Part shown: in pieces, positions 9,527-32,220 of the stretch
How positions within the stretch are numbered: the stretch's first letter is position 1
How the letters are laid out: the number at the start of each line of letters is the position of its first letter
Assembly (NCBI GenBank): GCA_031269095.1
Contig: JAIRWI010000008.1
Span: forward strand, 1 to 32,220
Reading direction: 5' to 3'
Length of the DNA stretch: 32,220 bases
Source of the DNA: Holosporales bacterium
GTDB taxonomy: Bacteria; Pseudomonadota; Alphaproteobacteria; RUG11792
Notes under the pieces: generated by a model
What the model was told of the DNA's origin: nothing
Databases searched by the model: none
The model's input: the letters and a program-made list of their open reading frames with translations, nothing else
Position numbers and translations under genes: made by a program

Positions 9527-9618
9527 GGAGAGATGGCCGAGAGGCTGAAGGCGCCCGCCTGGAAAGCGAGTATACGTTTAACGGCGTATCGAGGGTTCGA
9601 ATCCCTCTCTCTCCGCCA
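9527..9618 (+). tRNA. tRNA-Ser (GGA)
   Basis: This is a class II tRNA with a long variable arm (TATACGTTTAACGGCGTA). The acceptor GGAGAGA pairs with TCTCTCC, the D arm is GCCGAGAGGCTGAAGGC, and the anticodon GGA is at 9561-9563. The T arm is GAGGGTTCGAATCCCTC. Discriminator G is followed by encoded CCA. The anticodon stem CCCGC/GCGAG has a C-A mismatch at its second pair where related tRNAs have T-A. The last 33 bp are repeated at 9706-9738. Confidence 0.95.
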
Positions 9619-9705: not shown

Positions 9706-9738
9706 GTATCGAGGGTTCGAATCCCTCTCTCTCCGCCA
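9706..9738 (+). repeat. 33-bp exact duplicate of the tRNA-Ser 3' end (att-like)
   Basis: The stretch starting GTATCGAGGGTTCGAATCC and ending in CTCCGCCA is identical to 9586-9618 of the tRNA gene. It covers the end of the variable arm, the T arm, the acceptor 3' strand and CCA. No 5' tRNA part precedes it. Duplicated tRNA 3' ends are the usual product of site-specific integration into tRNA genes, so this reads as an attachment-site remnant with only 87 bp left between the two copies. Confidence 0.7.
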
Positions 9739-10300: not shown

Positions 10301-10852
10301 ATGTTTTGTAAAGCTTTGAGGTTGATATGTATAGTTTTTATAGGAGCTAGCTGTATCGTGAATGCAAGTGGTACTACCGCAATTTTTTTTACACAAGAGT
10401 CGTCGGTAAAATTTGGAGTGGAAGTTTCCAGTGGGGCAATATCATCAATTGCTGACATGGAAAAACCATTCGGAGAAATATCAAACCTTAGCAGTTTAAG
10501 TACTGCGCAAAAATCAACACTAACACAAAATATTTATTTGGCATATTTATTCGCAGGAGAATCTATGACAGATTTTCGGACGCTATGCTTGAGTAATATG
10601 ATCACAATAGCAAAAAGCGATACAAGTTTGTTTGGAAGCGACAACTACAAAATAACTCAGTTACTTTATGCTTCACAAACAGACGGTACTAATATATATA
10701 AGTCTGCGCGTACAGATGTTGTTGAAAACGTTATAAATAGATTATCCTCTGCTGTCAATGGAGACAAAGAACTTGCTCAAAAGTTGCTTCAAAAGTTTTA
10801 TGGAATTTTGTCTAAAGATGACAGATTTAAATGTTATGTACCAGCTTATTAA
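10301..10852 (+). CDS. putative secreted protein of unknown function
   Basis: The 183-residue product begins with a classic signal peptide (basic MFCKALR, hydrophobic core, likely cleavage after CIVNA near residue 22). The ATG at 10301 is preceded by AGGTGA (10291-10296), one of the few good Shine-Dalgarno sequences in this window; the frame continues upstream only to a weak TTG at 10286. The mature part is mostly polar and predicted alpha-helical in character, with no known motif. I do not recognise it. It lies 17 bp upstream of the secreted metallo-beta-lactamase-fold gene, so the two are likely co-transcribed and may act together outside the cytoplasm. Confidence 0.75.
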   Translation: MFCKALRLICIVFIGASCIVNASGTTAIFFTQESSVKFGVEVSSGAISSIADMEKPFGEISNLSSLSTAQKSTLTQNIYLAYLFAGESMTDFRTLCLSNMITIAKSDTSLFGSDNYKITQLLYASQTDGTNIYKSARTDVVENVINRLSSAVNGDKELAQKLLQKFYGILSKDDRFKCYVPAY

Positions 10853-10869: not shown

Positions 10870-12861
10870 ATGAAAACATTTAACTTCATTTGGTTTGTTG
10901 CTTTTATATGTTGTTCATTCGTAGCACTATCAACCGAACATCAATTTAGCATACTAAAAGTTGGCCAAGGCAATTTTAATATATTAAGCATGGACAAAAA
11001 CACCTTTATCTATGATTGTGGAAAAGGAATAAAAGAGCATGAATGGATAACAAAAAGCGGCGAATGTGATGTTTTTACGGTTGCCAAAAGTGGAATGTTG
11101 CAGACTCTCTTGCGTAATACGGAAAATTTAACTGTTGTAATTTCTCATGATCATGATGATCATCAAAATTTACTTGAACCACTGATATTATTAGTTAAAA
11201 ACATTAATGAAGTCAGAACAAAAATGCTTCCAACTCCTAAAGCACCTATCGTTGCAAAATTACTGGTGGGACATAATCCTATCAAAAAATCCGAAACTTG
11301 GAAGAAATATGGGGGAACTGAAGAAGTTTTTTCTCAAAAGCAGTGGAGTGTTAAGTTAGCTAACGTTCTTGGACCAACAGTTACTTTACTCCCTATTTTT
11401 CCGGAAGCTGTAATATCTGCTCCTGGTGTTCACGAAAAAAACCTCTTACTCAAAATAAAATGTAATTTTGCAACGCCAAGAGTGATCTTGCTTGCAGGAG
11501 ATGCAAGTGGAAAATTACTGGACAAAATAACTGTGCAGTTAACTGACGTTGATGTAGCTCCATTGTCTCATCACGGTAGTAACGAAGGTAGAGAGTTTGT
11601 GCTTATAGACAAAATTTTGTTTTACAGAAATCCTAAAAACAGAACAGAAATCCTACATACTAGGGATATAGCTATCACCCCATTTCTTGGCATTGTATCC
11701 TCTGTTATAATAAGTCCAGATTTAATCCCCAAATATTATGTAGACGAAGCTACTTCTGGCACAACATTTATACAAAAATTTCAAAGTTTTGGGGATGCTT
11801 TTCCTGTATTAGGGCCAACTGATCCTAGTTTGAGGCACCACTATTGCTCTCCGCATTTTATCACGTTGTATGACAGGAGTATATCGGCGCCTTGTAGATG
11901 TCCAGCAATTACTGATAATGGTCGGAATATTATATCTATATTTTGTACAGGCGATTTAGCTTCAGATGAATTGTATTATAAGGTAACAATTTCACCTGAT
12001 GGGTCTAAACTTACTATGACTAATCAGGCTAACAGAATACTATATCAAACAGTACGCGATGGAACTACGCTAGATCCATCTATTCCTACTTCTACAAAAT
12101 TAACAGAAATGGTAATGTCATCCGTGTCTAGCGCTACCAGAGATGCACTGAAGGACAAGACGAGCACTGCCACTTCAATTATTTCATCAGTAACTTCATT
12201 ATTCGGAACAATTCTGCCATTTTTATCTCCGACTGCTGAATCAATTGGTCAGGAAATAACGGCTTTGACAAGTATTGTGCAATCTGGGTATCTTGCTAAA
12301 GTAACAATTTTAGATAGATTATTGAAGGTGATGAAGGCTGTCATTTCTAATATCACATTTCCAAATCCACAAGAAACATTAAAATTTCGTATAAATGCAA
12401 CTGGATTGTGGGAAACGTCATCTCTTGTGCCATCTTCTACACCTGCTACGTCATCCTCATCCTCATCCTCATCCTCATCCTCATCCTCATCCTCATCCTC
12501 ATCCTCATCCTCATCCTCATCCTCATCCTCATCCTTATCCTTATCTACATTATCAAGTCATCATGCGGTTACTTTCGATAAAGTGTGGGCGAATTTCCTA
12601 TGGGCAAATGGTTTTCTAGCAACTGATCTACTGCCTATCAATAGTTTAGCAAATTTGCTAGTTGCATACTTAGTAGATATTCCTCCTTCTCTTTTCTCTT
12701 TCTCCAGTATAAATTTCGCACAGATATTGAGTATGTTTACAAAATGTAGTCATACGAAGGATTTTAAAGCATCTATAGGCATAGAAATATTTACACAATT
12801 AGGGTTCAATGAAACAGACGAATTCTTAAACTGGGTAGACTCTACGGTAGCACCGCTCTAA
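10870..12861 (+). CDS. secreted ComEC-like metallo-beta-lactamase-fold protein with poly-serine tract
   Basis: The 663-residue product has a signal peptide (MKTFNFIWFVAFICCSFVALS). An MBL-fold domain of the ComEC/Rec2 C-terminal type follows: VGQGNFNIL and FIYDCGKG, the metal-binding HxHxDH (H93, H95, D97, H98), LLAGDAS with D211, and LSHHGS with H234/H235. The metal ligands appear intact, so hydrolase activity (in ComEC-like proteins proposed to be nuclease) is plausible. A C-terminal half of unknown fold contains 28 consecutive serines (residues 528-555) encoded by a perfect hexanucleotide repeat. The frame opens earlier (ATG 10831, overlapping the upstream gene), but the signal peptide supports ATG 10870. 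ComEC membrane segments and DNA-binding domain are absent, so this is not a competence channel. Confidence 0.8.
   Translation: MKTFNFIWFVAFICCSFVALSTEHQFSILKVGQGNFNILSMDKNTFIYDCGKGIKEHEWITKSGECDVFTVAKSGMLQTLLRNTENLTVVISHDHDDHQNLLEPLILLVKNINEVRTKMLPTPKAPIVAKLLVGHNPIKKSETWKKYGGTEEVFSQKQWSVKLANVLGPTVTLLPIFPEAVISAPGVHEKNLLLKIKCNFATPRVILLAGDASGKLLDKITVQLTDVDVAPLSHHGSNEGREFVLIDKILFYRNPKNRTEILHTRDIAITPFLGIVSSVIISPDLIPKYYVDEATSGTTFIQKFQSFGDAFPVLGPTDPSLRHHYCSPHFITLYDRSISAPCRCPAITDNGRNIISIFCTGDLASDELYYKVTISPDGSKLTMTNQANRILYQTVRDGTTLDPSIPTSTKLTEMVMSSVSSATRDALKDKTSTATSIISSVTSLFGTILPFLSPTAESIGQEITALTSIVQSGYLAKVTILDRLLKVMKAVISNITFPNPQETLKFRINATGLWETSSLVPSSTPATSSSSSSSSSSSSSSSSSSSSSSSSSSSSLSLSTLSSHHAVTFDKVWANFLWANGFLATDLLPINSLANLLVAYLVDIPPSLFSFSSINFAQILSMFTKCSHTKDFKASIGIEIFTQLGFNETDEFLNWVDSTVAPL
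12451..12534 (+). repeat. TCATCC hexanucleotide microsatellite, 14 perfect units
   Basis: Fourteen uninterrupted TCATCC units (84 bp) encode 28 serines inside the MBL-fold gene, followed by two decayed units (TTATCC, TTATCT) that encode Leu-Ser. The unit is a multiple of three, so slippage changes tract length without a frameshift. Confidence 0.97.
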
Positions 12862-13045: not shown

Positions 13046-13410
13046 TTATAGAAACCTCTCCTCCTTCTCTATCCAACTCAGCGGGACATCATAAACCACA
13101 TCCTGCACAATCTCTGCTCTTTCTGTTGTATTTTTACAGACAGGTAGCAGAGGTTCAGGATTCTTCTGGTGTATGTTTTAGGTATATTCTTTTTCTCGGA
13201 TAGTTCTTGGATTGATGAGTATTTTCCGCGTTTTAGTTCTCTCATCCAGAGGTGAGCTTTTATCAAAGCCTTCAGCCAAGTATTATCCTCTTTAGCTTCT
13301 TCAAAGATAGGAGCACTACAATCTGGCGTAGTTATCCAAGACATGCCGTTCTTTTTCTTAATCTTGAACTCGATGTATATGTATAAACTTACTGTTATCG
13401 TAACGATATC
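13046..13410 (-). pseudogene. decayed C-terminal part of a site-specific recombinase (resolvase-type)
   Basis: Read on the minus strand from 13410, the frame gives DIVTITVSLYIYIEFKIKKK, then a middle block WLKALIKAHLWMRELKRGKYSS with SIQELSEKKNIPKTYTRRIL. This resembles the helix-turn-helix tail (LVKALARAHRW..YASIxEIA..xSYVxRIL) seen at the C-terminus of many alphaproteobacterial serine recombinases. After RILNL the family pattern continues only in another frame (TERAEIVQDVVYDVPLSWIEKEE) to a stop at 13046, so one frameshift is required. An in-frame TGA lies just upstream of 13410 and no catalytic domain is present. Family assignment rests on recalled pattern, not alignment. It lies on the distal side of the tRNA-Ser accessory stretch. 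Confidence 0.5.
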
Positions 13411-17441: not shown

Positions 17442-18836
17442 ATGGATTTGAAATCATATCGAACAATGGCAGCTTTATCTGATAAAAATTTTCCGATACC
17501 TTTCAATATTAACTGGCATGAGGGTATGCTTCTTTCTCAACACCATTTTCAACAAAACGATCTTCGGTATGAACAAATCCTTGCCCACCAGATAAAACTT
17601 TTGTCCTCCATACATTTTGGAGTATGTCATCTTAGGATTGATAATGTAGCTCTTCCAAACGGAATTTACAGAATAAACGAAATAGAAGCAATTTTCCCAG
17701 ATGGTCTAATTCTCAGTTATTTTCCTGATGACACTAATAAACTAAAACCCATTGAAGTTAATGTTAAATCATTGATGAAACGTGATCAAAACGAAGCCAC
17801 AGTTTATTTATCAATACTTAAAAGCAATTCGGATTCATCCCCCCTTCTTTCTAATCCTCCGAGGTTTTATTCTTTGGATGTCGGATATACCAAGGATGAC
17901 AATATTTTAGACAATGAAGTAAAAATTCCAAGACTCTTCCCTAACGCTTTTTTGAGCATTGATGAAATACCAAATTCCTGTATTGGTTTTCCGTTATGTA
18001 AAATAATAAAAATAGAAGGTGTATATCACATTAAGAATTGGACTCCCCCTTGCTTTTTTATAGCTAAACATTTTCCAATGTGGGAGCGTTGCAGAAAACT
18101 TGCTTTGAGTCTTCGCGAGAAGGTGACCTTTTTATCGGAAAAATTAAAAAATCAAACGGGAAGTTTGAATGCGATTACTGGAACAGAACAAATTTTAAAG
18201 CAACTTCTTATGGTTCTTCCTAGCTTTGAAGCTCTTATATATAGTGATCAGATTAGACCATATGATTTATACCAAGAACTTTCTAGAACTCTTGGAATAG
18301 TTTCTGTCCTCATCCCGATGGATATAGCTCCTATAATGCGTCCATATAATCATGAAAATATAGATTTTTCTATATATCCTCTTATTGATATGATCGATCA
18401 CTATATTTCTATAGTTGAAAGAGGATTTACCACCATCACAATGGATAAAAAAGAAAGATTCTTTTATCATTATATAACCCAAGACGATTTAGAAGCCTGT
18501 ACTGATGGAAAAATATATATCGGAGTTCGAGCTGAATTAAATTCAGACGTATTATCCTGGATGGATAATGCAATAATTGTTTCTGATGTTGCAATTGAAA
18601 ATGTCAGAGAAAAAAGAGTTAAAGGAGCCAAAAGAAGTATTTCTTCAAATGATATGTTCTGCAAAATTATGCCAGGATTTGGTGTTCTGCTTTTTGAAAT
18701 AACATTAGATAACACATTTATAAAAGGAGAACAGAACTTACATATTTTTAATCCGGGCGATAGTGCAACAAACAGACCTCTTGAAATAACTGTATACATA
18801 CCGAAAGAAAAGAGTAGAATCAAGAATGCAGCGTAG
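17442..18836 (+). CDS. tssK: type VI secretion baseplate subunit TssK
   Basis: TssK (ImpJ/VasE) forms the trimers that tie the T6SS baseplate to the TssL/TssM membrane complex. The N-terminal family signature is clear at residues ~25-45: NINWHEGMLLSQHHFQQNDL. The rest follows the usual shoulder, four-helix and head arrangement, with late motifs IYIGVRAEL and a C-terminal beta-rich head. Length (464 aa) is normal at 440-470. ATG 17442 is preceded by GAGAG a few bases upstream. It is the first gene of a tssK-tssL-tssM run on one strand, with 65 bp to tssL; the gene order itself supports the call. Confidence 0.95.
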   Translation: MDLKSYRTMAALSDKNFPIPFNINWHEGMLLSQHHFQQNDLRYEQILAHQIKLLSSIHFGVCHLRIDNVALPNGIYRINEIEAIFPDGLILSYFPDDTNKLKPIEVNVKSLMKRDQNEATVYLSILKSNSDSSPLLSNPPRFYSLDVGYTKDDNILDNEVKIPRLFPNAFLSIDEIPNSCIGFPLCKIIKIEGVYHIKNWTPPCFFIAKHFPMWERCRKLALSLREKVTFLSEKLKNQTGSLNAITGTEQILKQLLMVLPSFEALIYSDQIRPYDLYQELSRTLGIVSVLIPMDIAPIMRPYNHENIDFSIYPLIDMIDHYISIVERGFTTITMDKKERFFYHYITQDDLEACTDGKIYIGVRAELNSDVLSWMDNAIIVSDVAIENVREKRVKGAKRSISSNDMFCKIMPGFGVLLFEITLDNTFIKGEQNLHIFNPGDSATNRPLEITVYIPKEKSRIKNAA

Positions 18837-18901
18837 TTTTAAAGATATAGATAATTACAATAGTGTTTTTTGTTTTATAAAATATAGGTTTTATTAGGTA
18901 T

Positions 18902-19714
18902 ATGATACAATTTAGAGCAAGTGACAGCCCAATCGTTCATGGATTTCAAGCATTCTACTATGAACTTTTAAAACAAAAAGAGATCTGCCTTAGCCATTTT
19001 TTTAAAACTGATTCAGTTGACCCTAGTGATGCAGCTACCATTTCAGATTCTCAATCATCTACAGAAGTAGAAACTATGATTGTTAAGGTTCAAAAAGAGA
19101 TTATAAGTGTTATAAACAAGGTTTTTGATATTCTTTCTAGAAAATCTCGAACTAGTTCTAAAAAACTAGAAGAAGCAAAATATATCATGACCGCCTTAGC
19201 TGATGAGGTTTTTATCAATATCAGATGGGAGGGAGCAAAATTTTGGAGATTTTCCCTACTAGAAAAACAAATGTTTCAGAGTGAAATTTCCGGTGAGAAA
19301 TTTTTTTTAAATCTTGATGAATTCATAGTCGATTCTAATAATACCAACGATGAAATAGCTTTTTTGTACCTCATGTCCCTAAGCCTTGGATTTAAGGGGA
19401 GATATAGAGGGGCGGAAAACGAACACGAATACCTCTCATGGTATAAGGATAAACTATATTCAATACTGCATTCGAAATCTTCAAAACTTTTTTATCCAGG
19501 AAGAACGAATATGATCGAACAATGCTACGAAAATACCTTTGTTGAAGAATCCAAAGAAAGTCTACCAAACACAAGATTTTGGTCAATGTGTATCTCAAGC
19601 ATTGTTGCAGTGTATATTGTTATATCATTTGCCGTTTGGTTTGGGATAACCGACGAAATAAGTGATATATTAAATTCTATCGCAGAAATAGTGAGAAAGG
19701 AGCCTTTGGTATAG
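18902..19714 (+). CDS. tssL: type VI secretion membrane protein TssL (DotU/IcmH family)
   Basis: TssL is an inner-membrane, tail-anchored protein that links TssM to the baseplate. The product has 270 residues: a helical cytoplasmic domain with the DotU-family stretch AKYIMTALADEVFINIRWEGAK (split here at residues ~95-115), then LGFKGRYRG near 165 and a single membrane segment close to the C-terminus (residues ~222-245). No OmpA-like peptidoglycan-binding extension is present. The stop at 19712-19714 is 4 bp before the tssM ATG, so the two are almost certainly co-translated. Confidence 0.94.
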   Translation: MIQFRASDSPIVHGFQAFYYELLKQKEICLSHFFKTDSVDPSDAATISDSQSSTEVETMIVKVQKEIISVINKVFDILSRKSRTSSKKLEEAKYIMTALADEVFINIRWEGAKFWRFSLLEKQMFQSEISGEKFFLNLDEFIVDSNNTNDEIAFLYLMSLSLGFKGRYRGAENEHEYLSWYKDKLYSILHSKSSKLFYPGRTNMIEQCYENTFVEESKESLPNTRFWSMCISSIVAVYIVISFAVWFGITDEISDILNSIAEIVRKEPLV

Positions 19715-19718
19715 AGTT

Positions 19719-22700
19719 ATGGCATCTTTAACTCTCTTTGATAAAATCGTAGAGAATTTAACACTCTCTCTTCCAGCTCTTATAGGAATTGTTCTTTCGG
19801 CAGCTTTTGTATCGATGCTTGCCGTAACCATTTGGACTATCATTTCTATGAAAAAAGCTGAGGCAAAGAAAGCTATAAATCTTCCCCCCTCTGCGATGCA
19901 ACAAAAAGAGGAGAAAAGCATTAAGTATGATCTCCAAGGAAAACCACTACTCCCTCTTGGAGAATCAATTAATAAATTTTTGATAGTAAACGGATACATA
20001 AAGGTTCATAACACTATCCGTTCATTTTTCAAATCAATGGACTTTATGAGAAAAAACCTAGGGACTGGGTATAAATACAAGCTTCCCTGGTTTATGGTTG
20101 TTGGAGCCTCTAATTCCGGAAAATCTTCCCTTCTCTCTGGTTTTACCCATGATGAAATATTCGACGATGATGATGAAGAAGCAGACTGCACCTGGTGGTT
20201 TCTTAGAAATGGTGTTGTTCTTGATATAAAAGGAGAAACATTTTTACCTAAAGAAGGCTCTAAGGCGGATAATGATAGCTGGGATATAACACTCAGCATG
20301 CTCTCTCGCTACAGAAGTGAACGCCCTCTTAATGGTATACTCTTAACAATTCCAGCAACGGAGCTTTATGGAAAAAATAGGCTATCTATTGATAATCTAA
20401 AATCTCGCGCACAATACATAGCTAGAAAACTAAATTTTGCCCAAAATTTCCTAGGAATGAAACTTCCTATATATGTCGTCGTAACAAAAACAGATATCGT
20501 CCCAGGATTCCAAAGTTTTTGTTCTGAAATCCCTGTTAGAAATAGAAACAATATGCTTGGATGGTCTTGTCCGTATTCTCTTGAATCTATATATAATTCA
20601 AGATGGATTGATGATGCATTTGAATCGATCGAAGACGAACTCAATGAAATACGTATGGAAATATTTTCTGAAGCTGGAATCACAACAACTCGCGATGGTG
20701 TGTTTGTTTTTCCTAGCGAACTTCTAACAATCAAAGAAAATTTAAGAATCTATATTGATTACGTATTTAGATCCGGTTCTACAGAAGAACGGTTTTATTT
20801 TAGAGGAATGTATTTTACAGGAGACAGTAAAATGGTTCCCCTTCTGCAGTTCAGTGGTACCGGGAACGCTGAAGACATGGCTATTATGGGGACTCCTGAT
20901 GCAGATGTAAATGAAGCAGGAAATCTTACAGCATCACTCAAAGGGGAGGAGTTTGCCCCCAAGAAAATTTTCTTTTTTGAAGATTTACTCCTAAAGAAGA
21001 TTTTTATTGAGGATGGAATCGCCTCTCCTATGAAAAGGAAAATTCATCAATCCAACAAATCCATACTAATTGCTAAGTTCTCAACGGCAGCCTTTGTTGC
21101 AATTGGAAGCTATGGACTTTTTCATGCAAGAGAGCAACTTCGCCATAGTCGAGATATGATGTATCCATCACTGTTTAAGGTATCGTCTCTTATTAAGAGC
21201 GCTTCAAATTTAACGATGGATAAGCTGGAAAGCAATGGAAATGAAATACTAAGTGAGTGTACAAACCAGCTTTTTATAATGATGCAGCAGCTCAACAATA
21301 TTCGCTTTTCTTCTATGTTTGTCCCTGCTTCATGGTTTAGTAGTATTAACACAAGACTTATTGAAACCCTCCGTATTTCGTATCAAAGAGTTGTTGTTAG
21401 AACAATTTACATGAATCTAATTTTGAAAGCTCGCAATCTATTTAATACTAAACCACACGATTTTTCTAAAAATATTGGAGAGGTCCTAAATCCATATAAA
21501 TCACGAGAATACAAAAATATGAAAAAGTATGTCGATGGATTAATTGAGCTCGATAAAAATATAAAAAAATTTGATAGTTTGCGTAGTTCCGGAGACCCAA
21601 AGGACCTAAACGATTTAGTTGATTATACATTTAAAGGAACTCTCCCTAGTGAATTTCTCGATAACTATGAACAATTTCGTAGTATCCTAATGAATACACC
21701 TTTTCCTCCCATTAATTTATCTCCATATAAAAAAGTTGCTTACGACACATTAATCAATCTTTTTCAAACTTTTTTAGACGCTGTATTTTCTGATAGCAAA
21801 ACTGGAAGCATAATATACTTCCTTAATGATCTTATAAATAGTCTCAGTAAACAAAATATACAAAAAATTCCTGATTGTAAGAAAGTTGTACAATTTTCAA
21901 GAGATATAACCGAAGCTTGCAAGGAAATAGGAAATGAAGGAGAAACGTGGCTCGATACAGATACCTTTAAAAACAATGAAGAATATAATAATTTTCTCGA
22001 TGGTGTCGAACAGCTTTTTGGAAAGGATGTTGCACAATATATTCTCGACGTAACTGCCTCTAAGTTTGAAACTCTAAAGCTTAGGCTGGATGAGTTTAAT
22101 GATACACTGGAAAGCGATATTTCTGGACATAGTTCCAAAAAACCGCCTCTATCTCATGGGATTTTTAAGATAGAAAAATGTTTGGCACCAATTTGTAAGG
22201 CCCCATATATGCAGGAGTCAGAAGAACATGCCCTAACAACTGATATTCCAGAGGGCAAGATGGTATATTGGGATGATGAACTTATACAATATGCCTATGA
22301 AATTAGCAAAACATTCGAACAATTTCTTGCTACTTCTGTAAAGGAATTTCCGAGATTTATGCAAGAAGGCATAACCCTTATGGCAAAATCAAATTTTTGT
22401 AATGTTGTTGCAGGAATTGTTGGGAAAGCACAAAGTTTTGTTGATGCTCCAAGCGCATTAACCGATGAACTCACATCTGAAGAACTTTTACAAAAACAAG
22501 TTTCTGAACTAAGAGCTGTTGCTCCAAAATTTGTAAGCCTCCTTAACATACTCCGTAATGATAAACTTAATTTTGTTTTTAGCGATTTACGAACTATTTT
22601 AAATAAGGTAGGATTCTCTCTTTTATCTCATATTCAAAAGCTTTTAGATAATCAAAACCCATATATGCCACAAAATCTTAATTTTTCATATTGGGATGGA

Positions 22701-24155
22701 GAACTTGGAGCAAGTTATATGGCTTATAGTATAGATGATAGTGATGATATGAAAAATTATATTGTTATGCAAAGAAAACTGATAACCAGACTTGCCCTGG
22801 ATTTTGCCGAACCAATTGTCCTACTTTTAAATACGGATTCCATTTTTGATCAAAATTTTGGTAATCATGGGGAACTTATGAAATGGGTTAAAATAGTTGA
22901 TGCAGTAAAAAGGCTAAAAGCTAAAGATCCGACTTGTCCTATTAATATCGTCGAGAAATTTATCACAAAAGACCTCAATTCGTATAATTTAGAAAATATA
23001 ACAAAAAAGGTTAAATTAGATGACATAAAGGGCGAATCAAGTGACTATTTTATTAATTTAATAAAAAAAGTTAAAAGAGGAATATTGGCGAGAGGGGAAG
23101 TTCTGGTCAGACAACAGAACATAAAGAGGTATAATGTTTTAAAGGAATTTTATGACAAGAAACTTAATGGGAAATATCCTTTTACAGACTATGATAAAAC
23201 CACGAGAGTGCCCATGGCAGAGGCGGATACTGAAGATGTTCGCGAGTTCTTTAGAATGTATGACGAGTATGGAGGAACCCCTGAAAATATTTTTGATCAG
23301 ATATACCAACTAGGTGATGACGCTAAAGATTCATATAATTTTTTGAAAAAAATCCATGATATGCGATTATTTTTTGGGGATTTCGCAGAAAGAGAGTATG
23401 AATCTCCAAAAGTTCGATTAACTATCGATTTTAATATAAACAAAAAATCTGAAACTGGTACTGGATATTTAATGGATAGGATTTTTAAACCAAATAATGA
23501 TGCGAACATAGAAGCTATAAGTGAAAATAAATCGGATATGTGGTATCTCGGGGAAGCTATTAGTATGAATTTCCGTTGGGGTGGTGGCAACGATCCCGAT
23601 GCTGAAAAGCCCGTCTCTGATACGAATGATCCAGACTTAATAGTGGAGGGAGATAGCGCAAAAGTTGAATGCATTGGAAACTGGTCAGTACTCCGTTTTT
23701 TACAAAAATATAAAATCGACCTACCAAACTCGCTGCCAAATCAAACGGTTCTTGCTTTTAAGATCCCACTTAACAATGGTAAACAAGCCAAAATACATGT
23801 AGGGATTACCGCAAGTAGACCCCCTATCGGTGGTGGTGGAGATGAAAAGGGTTCAGGCGTTGCTCTCGTTTTACCTCAACCCATTGTTGGTGGAAAAATG
23901 CCAGAACTTGATGAAAATATCATAGCCTCATCCCACTCTCCGGTTATTGTCGAAAAAATCCAATTAGCTAAAAACATTCAACAAGACAGTTCTATCGACA
24001 CCGAAATTGAAGAAGTTATCGTAGAAAATAAAAAACTTAACAAAGATGTATCTGATTCAGAGGAAAAAGAAGCTCTAAAAATATTGGAGGGGGAAGCCAC
24101 CGAAGACTCTTCAACAGAACAAGAAATAGAAATAGTTAACGAACCGATAGGCTAA
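19719..24155 (+). CDS. tssM: type VI secretion membrane protein TssM (IcmF family)
   Basis: TssM is the inner-membrane backbone of the T6SS trans-envelope complex. At 1478 residues it is longer than the usual 1,100-1,300. The N-terminus has a membrane segment (~18-45). The cytoplasmic NTPase-like domain has an intact Walker A GASNSGKS (129-136), with PIYVVVTKTDIVPGF downstream. A second membrane segment lies at ~450-470 (STAAFVAIGSYGLFHA). The large periplasmic part includes the family's C-terminal beta-rich region (~1235-1380). The last ~90 residues are an acidic Glu/Ser/Asp-rich tail that is not a normal part of the family. The lipoprotein partner TssJ is not recognisable in the window. Confidence 0.95.
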   Translation: MASLTLFDKIVENLTLSLPALIGIVLSAAFVSMLAVTIWTIISMKKAEAKKAINLPPSAMQQKEEKSIKYDLQGKPLLPLGESINKFLIVNGYIKVHNTIRSFFKSMDFMRKNLGTGYKYKLPWFMVVGASNSGKSSLLSGFTHDEIFDDDDEEADCTWWFLRNGVVLDIKGETFLPKEGSKADNDSWDITLSMLSRYRSERPLNGILLTIPATELYGKNRLSIDNLKSRAQYIARKLNFAQNFLGMKLPIYVVVTKTDIVPGFQSFCSEIPVRNRNNMLGWSCPYSLESIYNSRWIDDAFESIEDELNEIRMEIFSEAGITTTRDGVFVFPSELLTIKENLRIYIDYVFRSGSTEERFYFRGMYFTGDSKMVPLLQFSGTGNAEDMAIMGTPDADVNEAGNLTASLKGEEFAPKKIFFFEDLLLKKIFIEDGIASPMKRKIHQSNKSILIAKFSTAAFVAIGSYGLFHAREQLRHSRDMMYPSLFKVSSLIKSASNLTMDKLESNGNEILSECTNQLFIMMQQLNNIRFSSMFVPASWFSSINTRLIETLRISYQRVVVRTIYMNLILKARNLFNTKPHDFSKNIGEVLNPYKSREYKNMKKYVDGLIELDKNIKKFDSLRSSGDPKDLNDLVDYTFKGTLPSEFLDNYEQFRSILMNTPFPPINLSPYKKVAYDTLINLFQTFLDAVFSDSKTGSIIYFLNDLINSLSKQNIQKIPDCKKVVQFSRDITEACKEIGNEGETWLDTDTFKNNEEYNNFLDGVEQLFGKDVAQYILDVTASKFETLKLRLDEFNDTLESDISGHSSKKPPLSHGIFKIEKCLAPICKAPYMQESEEHALTTDIPEGKMVYWDDELIQYAYEISKTFEQFLATSVKEFPRFMQEGITLMAKSNFCNVVAGIVGKAQSFVDAPSALTDELTSEELLQKQVSELRAVAPKFVSLLNILRNDKLNFVFSDLRTILNKVGFSLLSHIQKLLDNQNPYMPQNLNFSYWDGELGASYMAYSIDDSDDMKNYIVMQRKLITRLALDFAEPIVLLLNTDSIFDQNFGNHGELMKWVKIVDAVKRLKAKDPTCPINIVEKFITKDLNSYNLENITKKVKLDDIKGESSDYFINLIKKVKRGILARGEVLVRQQNIKRYNVLKEFYDKKLNGKYPFTDYDKTTRVPMAEADTEDVREFFRMYDEYGGTPENIFDQIYQLGDDAKDSYNFLKKIHDMRLFFGDFAEREYESPKVRLTIDFNINKKSETGTGYLMDRIFKPNNDANIEAISENKSDMWYLGEAISMNFRWGGGNDPDAEKPVSDTNDPDLIVEGDSAKVECIGNWSVLRFLQKYKIDLPNSLPNQTVLAFKIPLNNGKQAKIHVGITASRPPIGGGGDEKGSGVALVLPQPIVGGKMPELDENIIASSHSPVIVEKIQLAKNIQQDSSIDTEIEEVIVENKKLNKDVSDSEEKEALKILEGEATEDSSTEQEIEIVNEPIG

Positions 24156-30198: not shown

Positions 30199-30224
30199 AT
30201 AGATAAACTGTAGAGTTTATCTAT
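30199..30224 (-). terminator. perfect 11-bp hairpin at the 3' end of the Ser-rich gene
   Basis: ATAGATAAACT (30199-30209) and AGTTTATCTAT (30214-30224) flank a 4-nt loop and overlap the last base of the stop codon. On the minus strand no T-tract follows, so it is a weak terminator or an mRNA-end stabiliser. Confidence 0.35.
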
Positions 30225-32220
30225 TAAGAGGTTTTTGCTTCCAGTGACTCAAAGAGCCGTCTTCTTTGCTCTGCTCTAGCTTTATATTTTTTTTCTTCTT
30301 CCTTTAGGTATTGTTCTTGTTTTAAGATCTCTGCCTTTTCTACTTCTTCTTTTTTTTGTAGTTCCTTAGTTTTTAAAACTCTTTCTTCTCGGCGTGAGTT
30401 TCTTTCTGCTTGATGTTTTCTCTCTCTCTCTTCTGATTCTCTTCCTTCGTCTTCTATCTTTTTACGTTTTAGACCTCTTCCTCTTGTTTTCTCTTCTTTT
30501 TCAGCTTTTGTTTTCTCGTAGTTAATTCTGTCAAAGTCCCTCCTCATATTTTCTATTTGGTTTTGCATATCTATTTTTAAAATTTCATTTTTTTCGTCTA
30601 ACTCAGCTTTCTGTTTCTCCAGTAGCTTTTTTGTCAGCTCTGCATACGTCTCCTGTTGTTCTCTTAAAGTTTTATTAAATTGTTCTATAATTCCTTCTTT
30701 ATCTTTTCCCATTTGCTCTACAAGAGTCTTTTCTTTCTCTTCCATTTCTTTTCGGTACTCATTCCATTCCTTTTGCTGTTCTTCAATCTGTTCTTGAAGT
30801 TCTGCTTTTTGTTGTCTTAACATACCTTGTAAGGTTGCTATTTCGGCATTAGCCTGAACTAAGTATTCAGAAAGAAGTTCTACCTTTTCTCCTGCTGCGG
30901 CTTCTTCAAGTTCTTTCTGTCTCTGTCTTTCTTTTTCGACTTCTTCTTCCTGGCGCTTTTTTTCTTCCGCTTCTGCTTTTATTCTGTTTTCTTCTTTTTC
31001 TTTTGCTGCCTTCTCTTTTTCACTCTTAGCTTTCTCTTCTTTTTCTTTTCTCTCTCTTTCTATTTTCTCAGCAGCTTCTTTTTTTGCTAATTCTTCCTGT
31101 TTTTTTAAATTTTCTTCCTCTTCTGGGTTTGAAACCAGGGCTGGGCTCGAAGCTGGGCTCGTGCTTGTGTCTGAAGCACTCGAACTACTCGAACTACTCG
31201 AACTGCTCGAACTACTCGAACTACTCGAAGCTGGGCTTGAGGTACTTGGGAACAGGCTTGGGCTCGAAACTGGGCTCGTGCTTGTGTCTGAAGCACTCGA
31301 ACTACTCGAACTGCTCGAACTACTCGAACTGCTCGAAGCTGGGCTTGAGGTACTTATTGAGAGCGGGGTCGTGCTTGGATTTAAAGTACTTCCTAATGGG
31401 GTAAACACCGAAAAAGAACTTGATGGAGATGGTGGAAGAATAAATTCTGGAGTTGTTCCAATTTCTGAACTTACGCTAAATCCTGGAGTTGTTTTTTGTC
31501 TTTTCTTTCCTCTATCCTCTATTTTAGACGAAGATGGAGGAGTTGATGGGGATGTTACATCAGGAGCAAATTGGCGTCCTGGAGGTGTTCTAAAAACTCT
31601 CTTCTCATTTCTTTTTGAGTATGGATTTTTTATAAAAGACATAAAATTGTCATAAAGACCTTCGTGGGCACTTAAAGTTTCTTTCAAAAGTTCCGAACTA
31701 CCTGAGTGTTGTTGAAAAAAACTTTGAAGATCATTTCCGATTTCTATTGCTTTTTCAGGACTTACATTTTTCCACCTCATCAAATCACTTATCGGGGCCA
31801 TTATATTGAAAAGTTCACCACCTGTAGGATTTTTTAATATATTCTCTATCTTGTACAAGTTTCTTTGTGCATTATCATCATCACCCCCTATCTCTTCTCC
31901 TCTTAAAGATGAAGATGGAGAACTAGAGCTTCGTGGGGCTTTTTCTTCACTAACTTTAAAGTTCTCAATATCATTAACGAATCTATCCCAATTCTCTCCT
32001 TCTTGACCTCCTAACGATAAGCCGATTTGATTAAAAACATCTCTAAAACTTCCACTTTTGTATCCTTGAAAAGCATTTTTGATCATTATTCTGGATTCAG
32101 GACTTAAGTTATTATATCTCATTAATGTTGTAAAAAATGTTTTATTTGATGTTGAAAGATCTTCCCCTTGTTTGAACATGTCATTTAATACAATATATAT
32201 TCTGTTTAAAGTTTCGCTCA
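30224..32220 (-). CDS. large Ser-rich coiled-coil protein, 5' end beyond the window
   Basis: The frame is open from the right window edge to TAA at 30224-30226. The first in-window ATG is at 32179, but 13 more sense codons (..ETLNRIYIVLND) precede it, so the true start probably lies outside. The visible ~664 residues have three parts. An N-terminal helical region of unknown fold spans ~210 residues. A Ser/Pro/Thr linker carries two serine runs flanked by near-identical blocks (SASDTSTSP). A long, highly charged Lys/Glu coiled coil covers the last ~270 residues. No signal peptide or enzyme motif is visible. Size and architecture suggest a structural or effector-like protein; the function is unknown. 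Confidence 0.75.
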   Translation of the reverse strand, partial: SETLNRIYIVLNDMFKQGEDLSTSNKTFFTTLMRYNNLSPESRIMIKNAFQGYKSGSFRDVFNQIGLSLGGQEGENWDRFVNDIENFKVSEEKAPRSSSSPSSSLRGEEIGGDDDNAQRNLYKIENILKNPTGGELFNIMAPISDLMRWKNVSPEKAIEIGNDLQSFFQQHSGSSELLKETLSAHEGLYDNFMSFIKNPYSKRNEKRVFRTPPGRQFAPDVTSPSTPPSSSKIEDRGKKRQKTTPGFSVSSEIGTTPEFILPPSPSSSFSVFTPLGSTLNPSTTPLSISTSSPASSSSSSSSSSSSSSASDTSTSPVSSPSLFPSTSSPASSSSSSSSSSSSSSSSSASDTSTSPASSPALVSNPEEEENLKKQEELAKKEAAEKIERERKEKEEKAKSEKEKAAKEKEENRIKAEAEEKKRQEEEVEKERQRQKELEEAAAGEKVELLSEYLVQANAEIATLQGMLRQQKAELQEQIEEQQKEWNEYRKEMEEKEKTLVEQMGKDKEGIIEQFNKTLREQQETYAELTKKLLEKQKAELDEKNEILKIDMQNQIENMRRDFDRINYEKTKAEKEEKTRGRGLKRKKIEDEGRESEERERKHQAERNSRREERVLKTKELQKKEEVEKAEILKQEQYLKEEEKKYKARAEQRRRLFESLEAKTS
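31141..31352 (-). repeat. 117-bp tandem duplication containing 9-bp serine-coding repeats
   Basis: The block starting CTGGGCTCGAAGCTGGGCTC at 31141 recurs at 31258 with few changes, a period of 117 bp (39 codons). Inside each block 9-mers of the form CTACTCGAA or CTGCTCGAA (plus strand) repeat, five in the first block and four in the second, encoding runs of serine. Confidence 0.9.

Follow-up and report, generated by a model that had tools for sequence, protein, structure and literature searches.

The question raised by this locus is what a ComEC-type MBL (beta-lactamase-like) protein does in a bacterium of very small genome when it bears a signal-like N-terminus of its own. The window, that is, the whole stretch of 32,220 nucleotides analysed here, carries at 10870-12861 an open frame that a previous sequence-only reading had described as a free exported hydrolase fused to a serine-rich half. 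The features on which the argument depends are the following.

9586-9618 and 9706-9738, + strand: perfect 33-nt duplication of the tRNA-Ser(GGA) 3' end, attachment-site-like, about 560 nt upstream of the gene pair
10301..10852, + strand: partner gene, 183 aa, with a signal-like N-terminus, otherwise soluble and low in Pro and Gly
10870..12861, + strand: MBL gene, an open frame of 663 aa for a ComEC-type MBL-fold hydrolase, predicted to be exported
10870..10932, + strand: predicted signal peptide, residues 1-21 (MKTFNFIWFVAFICCSFVALS), by hydropathy only
11146..11163, + strand: HDHDDH metal motif, residues 93-98, by motif search and alignments A1 and A3
11431..11433, + strand: His188 within VHEKN, an invariant column (H170/N173 of A1)
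11497..11505, + strand: GDA, the bridging-Asp motif, residues 210-212, by motif and A3 alignment
11569..11580, + strand: HHGS motif, residues 234-237, by motif and A3 alignment
12451..12534, + strand: 28-serine tract, encoded by a TCATCC repeat (array 12451-12545)
13058..13374, - strand: degraded helix-turn-helix gene copy

Several elements of the earlier description are confirmed here. A hydrophobic signal-like N-terminus is present by hydropathy, and the ComEC-type metal motifs were all located, namely DCG (residues 49-51), HDHDDH, GDA and HHGS. The protein displays the signature of the MBL superfamily (HxHxDH, bridging Asp and later His) and, as is required of ComEC/Rec2, an MBL domain with conserved metal motifs. 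The metal positions of HDHDDH were conserved in both A1 and A3, with the second His replaced by Asp in some distant relatives. His188, invariant in the seven-member alignment of the window family (A1) and not conserved among more distant relatives (A3), is a candidate extra metal ligand.

Judged by its own sequence, the window protein appears very divergent. A Pfam scan assigned it to zero families, the Competence channel PF03772 included, and alone it found no significant match among PDB sequences. The NCBIfam ComEC_Rec2 model (TIGR00361) aligned to it at model positions 436-528, which correspond to the MBL part, with an E value of 4.5e-4 and a score of 18.5 bits that did not reach the cut-off (190 bits). 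While the Lactamase_B gathering score of 22.7 bits was exceeded by a paralogue on contig C43 of the same genome (G000, 845 kb; 43.8 bits) and by the G003b protein (27.8), the window copy gave no match. BLASTP linked the window protein to the C43 paralogue (E 2e-13) and to a G003 copy (E 3e-17); single-protein searches of genome contigs and plasmids for its relatives found none, and a two-sequence alignment used as query recovered G003 as the sole record. In the family searched, which comprises 35 genomes of 0.5-1.1 Mb and in which order and family coincide, exported-type MBL proteins occurred in four genomes (G000 plus three others), and up to five diverged copies were found in one genome. The window-family MBLs clustered in the tree (94/96), in which branches were long and the inner order was unsure. 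The pairs of C43 and of G003 (L014, L038) lie a few kb from a gyrA-looking gene.

A profile built from 11 relatives matched the solved ComEC MBL domain 9ic4 with an E value of 1.2e-17, and also full ComEC chains. The ComEC MBL domain is a Mn-dependent endo/5'-exonuclease (PMC12455585). The same profile matched weakly the choline esterase Pce/CbpE, and the identification as a nuclease is weakened because related MBLs include such non-nucleases. Structure prediction had been proposed as a check, but AlphaFold, run on three usable sequences, yielded pLDDT values of 39 (whole) and 51.5 (core) and models with no significant Foldseek match; since these are too weak to judge fold or active site, the assignment of the MBL fold rests on sequence homology. 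As to the proposed free, exported ComEC-like hydrolase, it is favoured by the N-terminus, by motifs that persist in the 17 paired proteins despite their divergence, and by the way the profile matches ComEC nuclease domains of solved structure, export itself being a prediction.

The C-terminal part of the earlier description did not hold. The homologous MBL region extends to about residue 395 in the alignment of relatives, so that the variable C-terminus comprises about 270 residues instead of the 400 or so proposed. The count of 28 serines was exact (consecutive, residues 528-555), but their coding DNA is a TCATCC hexamer microsatellite of 15.8 copies, and among the aligned relatives only the C43 paralogue has a serine run, another one. 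The fused serine-rich half was thus dropped as the defining feature, and the tract was rejected as a functional half characteristic of the family. Because the six-base unit preserves the frame, a gain or loss of copies would lengthen or shorten the protein without turning the gene off. Conspicuous as it is, the serine run comes from a microsatellite and is not where the information lies. In another relative, the G282 MBL (L037:7652-9346, - strand), the C-terminal region looks leucine-rich-repeat-like by eye, for which Pfam gives no support. Elsewhere in the window (30224-32179, - strand), a 651-aa protein carries two poly-serine tracts plus a long charged, probably coiled-coil region, with no Pfam family.

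The conserved companion is a separate gene, overlooked in the first reading: it lies directly upstream, and its stop is 17 nt ahead of the MBL start, the MBL gene being the second of a tight pair. The partner has an N-terminal hydropathy peak of 2.78, against 1.55 for the rest, and no Pfam protease domain was found in it or in the other window genes scanned. By computation, the pair recurs 17 times in nine genomes (G000, G003, G012, G106, G267, G282, G316, G352 and G277) from seven families of small-genome alphaproteobacteria, and the catalytic motifs persist at sequence identities of about 20-30%; HxH/DxDH, GDA/V and HHG[SAG] were present in 17 of 17 paired MBL proteins. In all 17 loci the partner is directly upstream on the same strand, at a spacing of -83 to +174 nt. 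A crude signal-peptide test was passed by 16 of the 17 partners and by 23 of 69 non-pair neighbouring ORFs, the binomial value of 2.7e-7 being overstated because the loci are related. Exceptions were the truncated or contig-edge copies (G316 C29, G272 and G010), the G316 C21 MBL, which had no upstream partner, and three large-genome matches (G049, G067 and G125) that showed no comparable pair; paired loci were found only in small genomes (0.85-2.6 Mb). The gene arrangement and the homology of the hydrolase and partner pair are well supported.

The partners themselves are more heterogeneous. Those of G267, G282, G316, G352 and G277 form one family (E 1e-138 to 1e-3) with weak TPR matches, and the partners of this distant group are large (388-589 aa). 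Among the window family's small partners mutual similarity is weak, with 0-2 pairs at E<0.01 in each round of shuffled controls, and a comparison did not show homology between them and the large TPR-like ones. In G012, a second signal-bearing ORF (L017:3893-4531, - strand) converges on the MBL gene and weakly resembles a G003 partner (E ~0.01).

We believe that the most plausible explanation, to which we give a probability of roughly 55%, is an exported phosphodiesterase that depends on metal, is probably a nuclease and acts outside the cytoplasm with a cognate exported partner. The window protein would be a ComEC-type phosphodiesterase with an MBL fold and two metals, exported by the Sec route to work in the periplasm or in the surroundings of the cell, and its activity would most likely be that of a nuclease. 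The upstream protein would be co-produced, cognate and exported; it is most likely helical and would bind the enzyme so as to escort, restrain or target it. As to what the cell gains, the leading candidate is the degradation of extracytoplasmic nucleic acid, in a bacterium that is reduced and depends on a host or partner. What the computation shows is the gene pair and its recurrence, the signal-like N-termini, the conserved motifs, the homology to the ComEC MBL domain and the lack of such a domain in the resident ComEC; export, nucleic acid as the substrate, partner binding and biological role are what we infer. The carrier is an alphaproteobacterium with a tiny genome and is probably host-dependent, and its reduced family of 35 genomes seems to resemble the order Rs-D84, composed of reduced gut symbionts or parasites without nucleotide synthesis (PMC12306168).

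The surroundings of the pair fit a past integration site, marked by the tRNA-Ser duplication and the degraded helix-turn-helix gene. No third copy of the 33-nt repeat was found within the window. The degraded gene shares 62% identity across 84 aa (E 1e-31) with a gene on the G012 pair contig; it has four matches in the window's genome, two of them with internal stops, and is probably a mobile-element remnant. Island boundaries around the pair were not found.

The genome carries a separate ComEC gene (L042:484-2424), and a ComEC fragment was rejected as an explanation for the window ORF. This resident ComEC has the channel PF03772 (Competence being its only Pfam family), matches TIGR00361 only at model positions 78-434, and showed no MBL motifs when these were looked for. 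Two other family members that were read, G003 and G012, likewise have a ComEC with the channel by Pfam and no MBL domain. These are natural cases in which a nuclease-less ComEC channel coexists with free, putative ComEC-type nucleases, and they bear on the fate of the non-transported strand, the disposal of which by MBL-less ComEC proteins has been called an open question (PMC8579336). The exported MBL might then serve in trans as the nuclease of the channel and remove, while DNA is taken up, the strand that is not transported, and the model positions covered by the window protein and by its paralogue (441-616, also the MBL part) complement those of the resident protein; a GspE/PilB-type ATPase is moreover present in 32 of 35 relatives. 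However, the channel occurs in 33 of 35 family genomes and the pair in only four, so that such a role is possible but unlikely, and at most occasional; the up to five diverged copies per genome and the lack of any linkage seen between the MBL gene and comEC also argue against it.

Delivery into a host cell or vacuole, where the enzyme would cleave the host's nucleic acid or cyclic nucleotides, or else other phosphodiesters, is an equally improbable alternative: the confinement of the pairs to small genomes, the multiple diverged copies and the TPR-like partners are compatible with it, but no host is known, neither a targeting motif nor a dedicated secretion gene was recognised, and T6SS genes, found in 33 of the 35 genomes of the family, do not follow the distribution of the pair. 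In the window itself, tssK, tssL and tssM are found at 17442-24155, and it is TssK that was counted in 33/35. The T2SS/T4P ATPase and the T6SS were both discarded as correlates, since near-universal systems (32/35 and 33/35) are uninformative on the pair. The tightness of the pairing, the presence of several diverged pairs in a genome and the tandem pairs of G003 would also suit an interbacterial toxin, a periplasmic nuclease or hydrolase held in check by the upstream protein acting as immunity. This we consider rather doubtful, because Sec signals on both proteins, as predicted here, are atypical for delivered antibacterial effectors, no toxin-delivery domain was seen, and the partner gene precedes that of the enzyme and encodes a large protein in the distant group. 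An anti-phage nuclease like HamM/Avs1a or RTasMBL is very improbable. Although relatives match the PADLOC RTasMBL model (to 1.3e-13) and the NCBIfam Avs1a model (below its cut-off), and HamM/Avs1a-type MBLs resemble ComEC nucleases (PMC12799240), the window protein has no PADLOC match and has a signal-like N-terminus, and in the genes scanned no trypsin-like protease or defence gene was recognised beside the pair.

An exported phosphodiesterase with its cognate partner is thus the reading that we retain, as a predicted exported enzyme pair that recurs in bacteria with very small genomes. More tentatively, the pair might represent an undescribed exported module of host-dependent alphaproteobacteria: a nuclease derived from ComEC would have been released from the channel, a dedicated helical partner would control or target it, and it might even serve the MBL-less ComEC in trans. 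Free ComEC-like MBL proteins as such are already annotated elsewhere.

Among known systems, the closest is the MBL domain of ComEC/Rec2 (TIGR00361; PDB 9ic4 and 30bt): the MBL motifs are common to both, and profile homology spans most of that domain. The window protein differs from ComEC/Rec2 in that it lacks the channel and the OB domain and has its own signal-like N-terminus and an upstream partner, and its family carries HxHxDH where the characterised ComEC domain has HxDxDH. Plasmid proteins annotated as ComEC/Rec2 family competence proteins (Geobacillus, Planococcus and others) are stand-alone ComEC-like MBLs that share about 25-29% identity with the G282 relative, although no plasmid match was obtained with the window protein itself. 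The haloarchaeal ComA-like proteins, for which a link to extracellular DNA has been proposed (PMC5118699), also present a ComEC-like MBL outside ComEC, but theirs is joined to a lamin tail domain whereas the window protein has a separate partner. The HamM/Avs1a trypsin-MBL defence nucleases (PMC12799240) similarly place a ComEC-like MBL nuclease beside a second required protein, in their case a protease within a defence context, neither of which was recognised at the window pair. Finally, Pce/CbpE is a secreted MBL phosphodiesterase, as the window protein is predicted to be, but it has a choline-binding architecture, and the profile matches it much more weakly than it matches ComEC.
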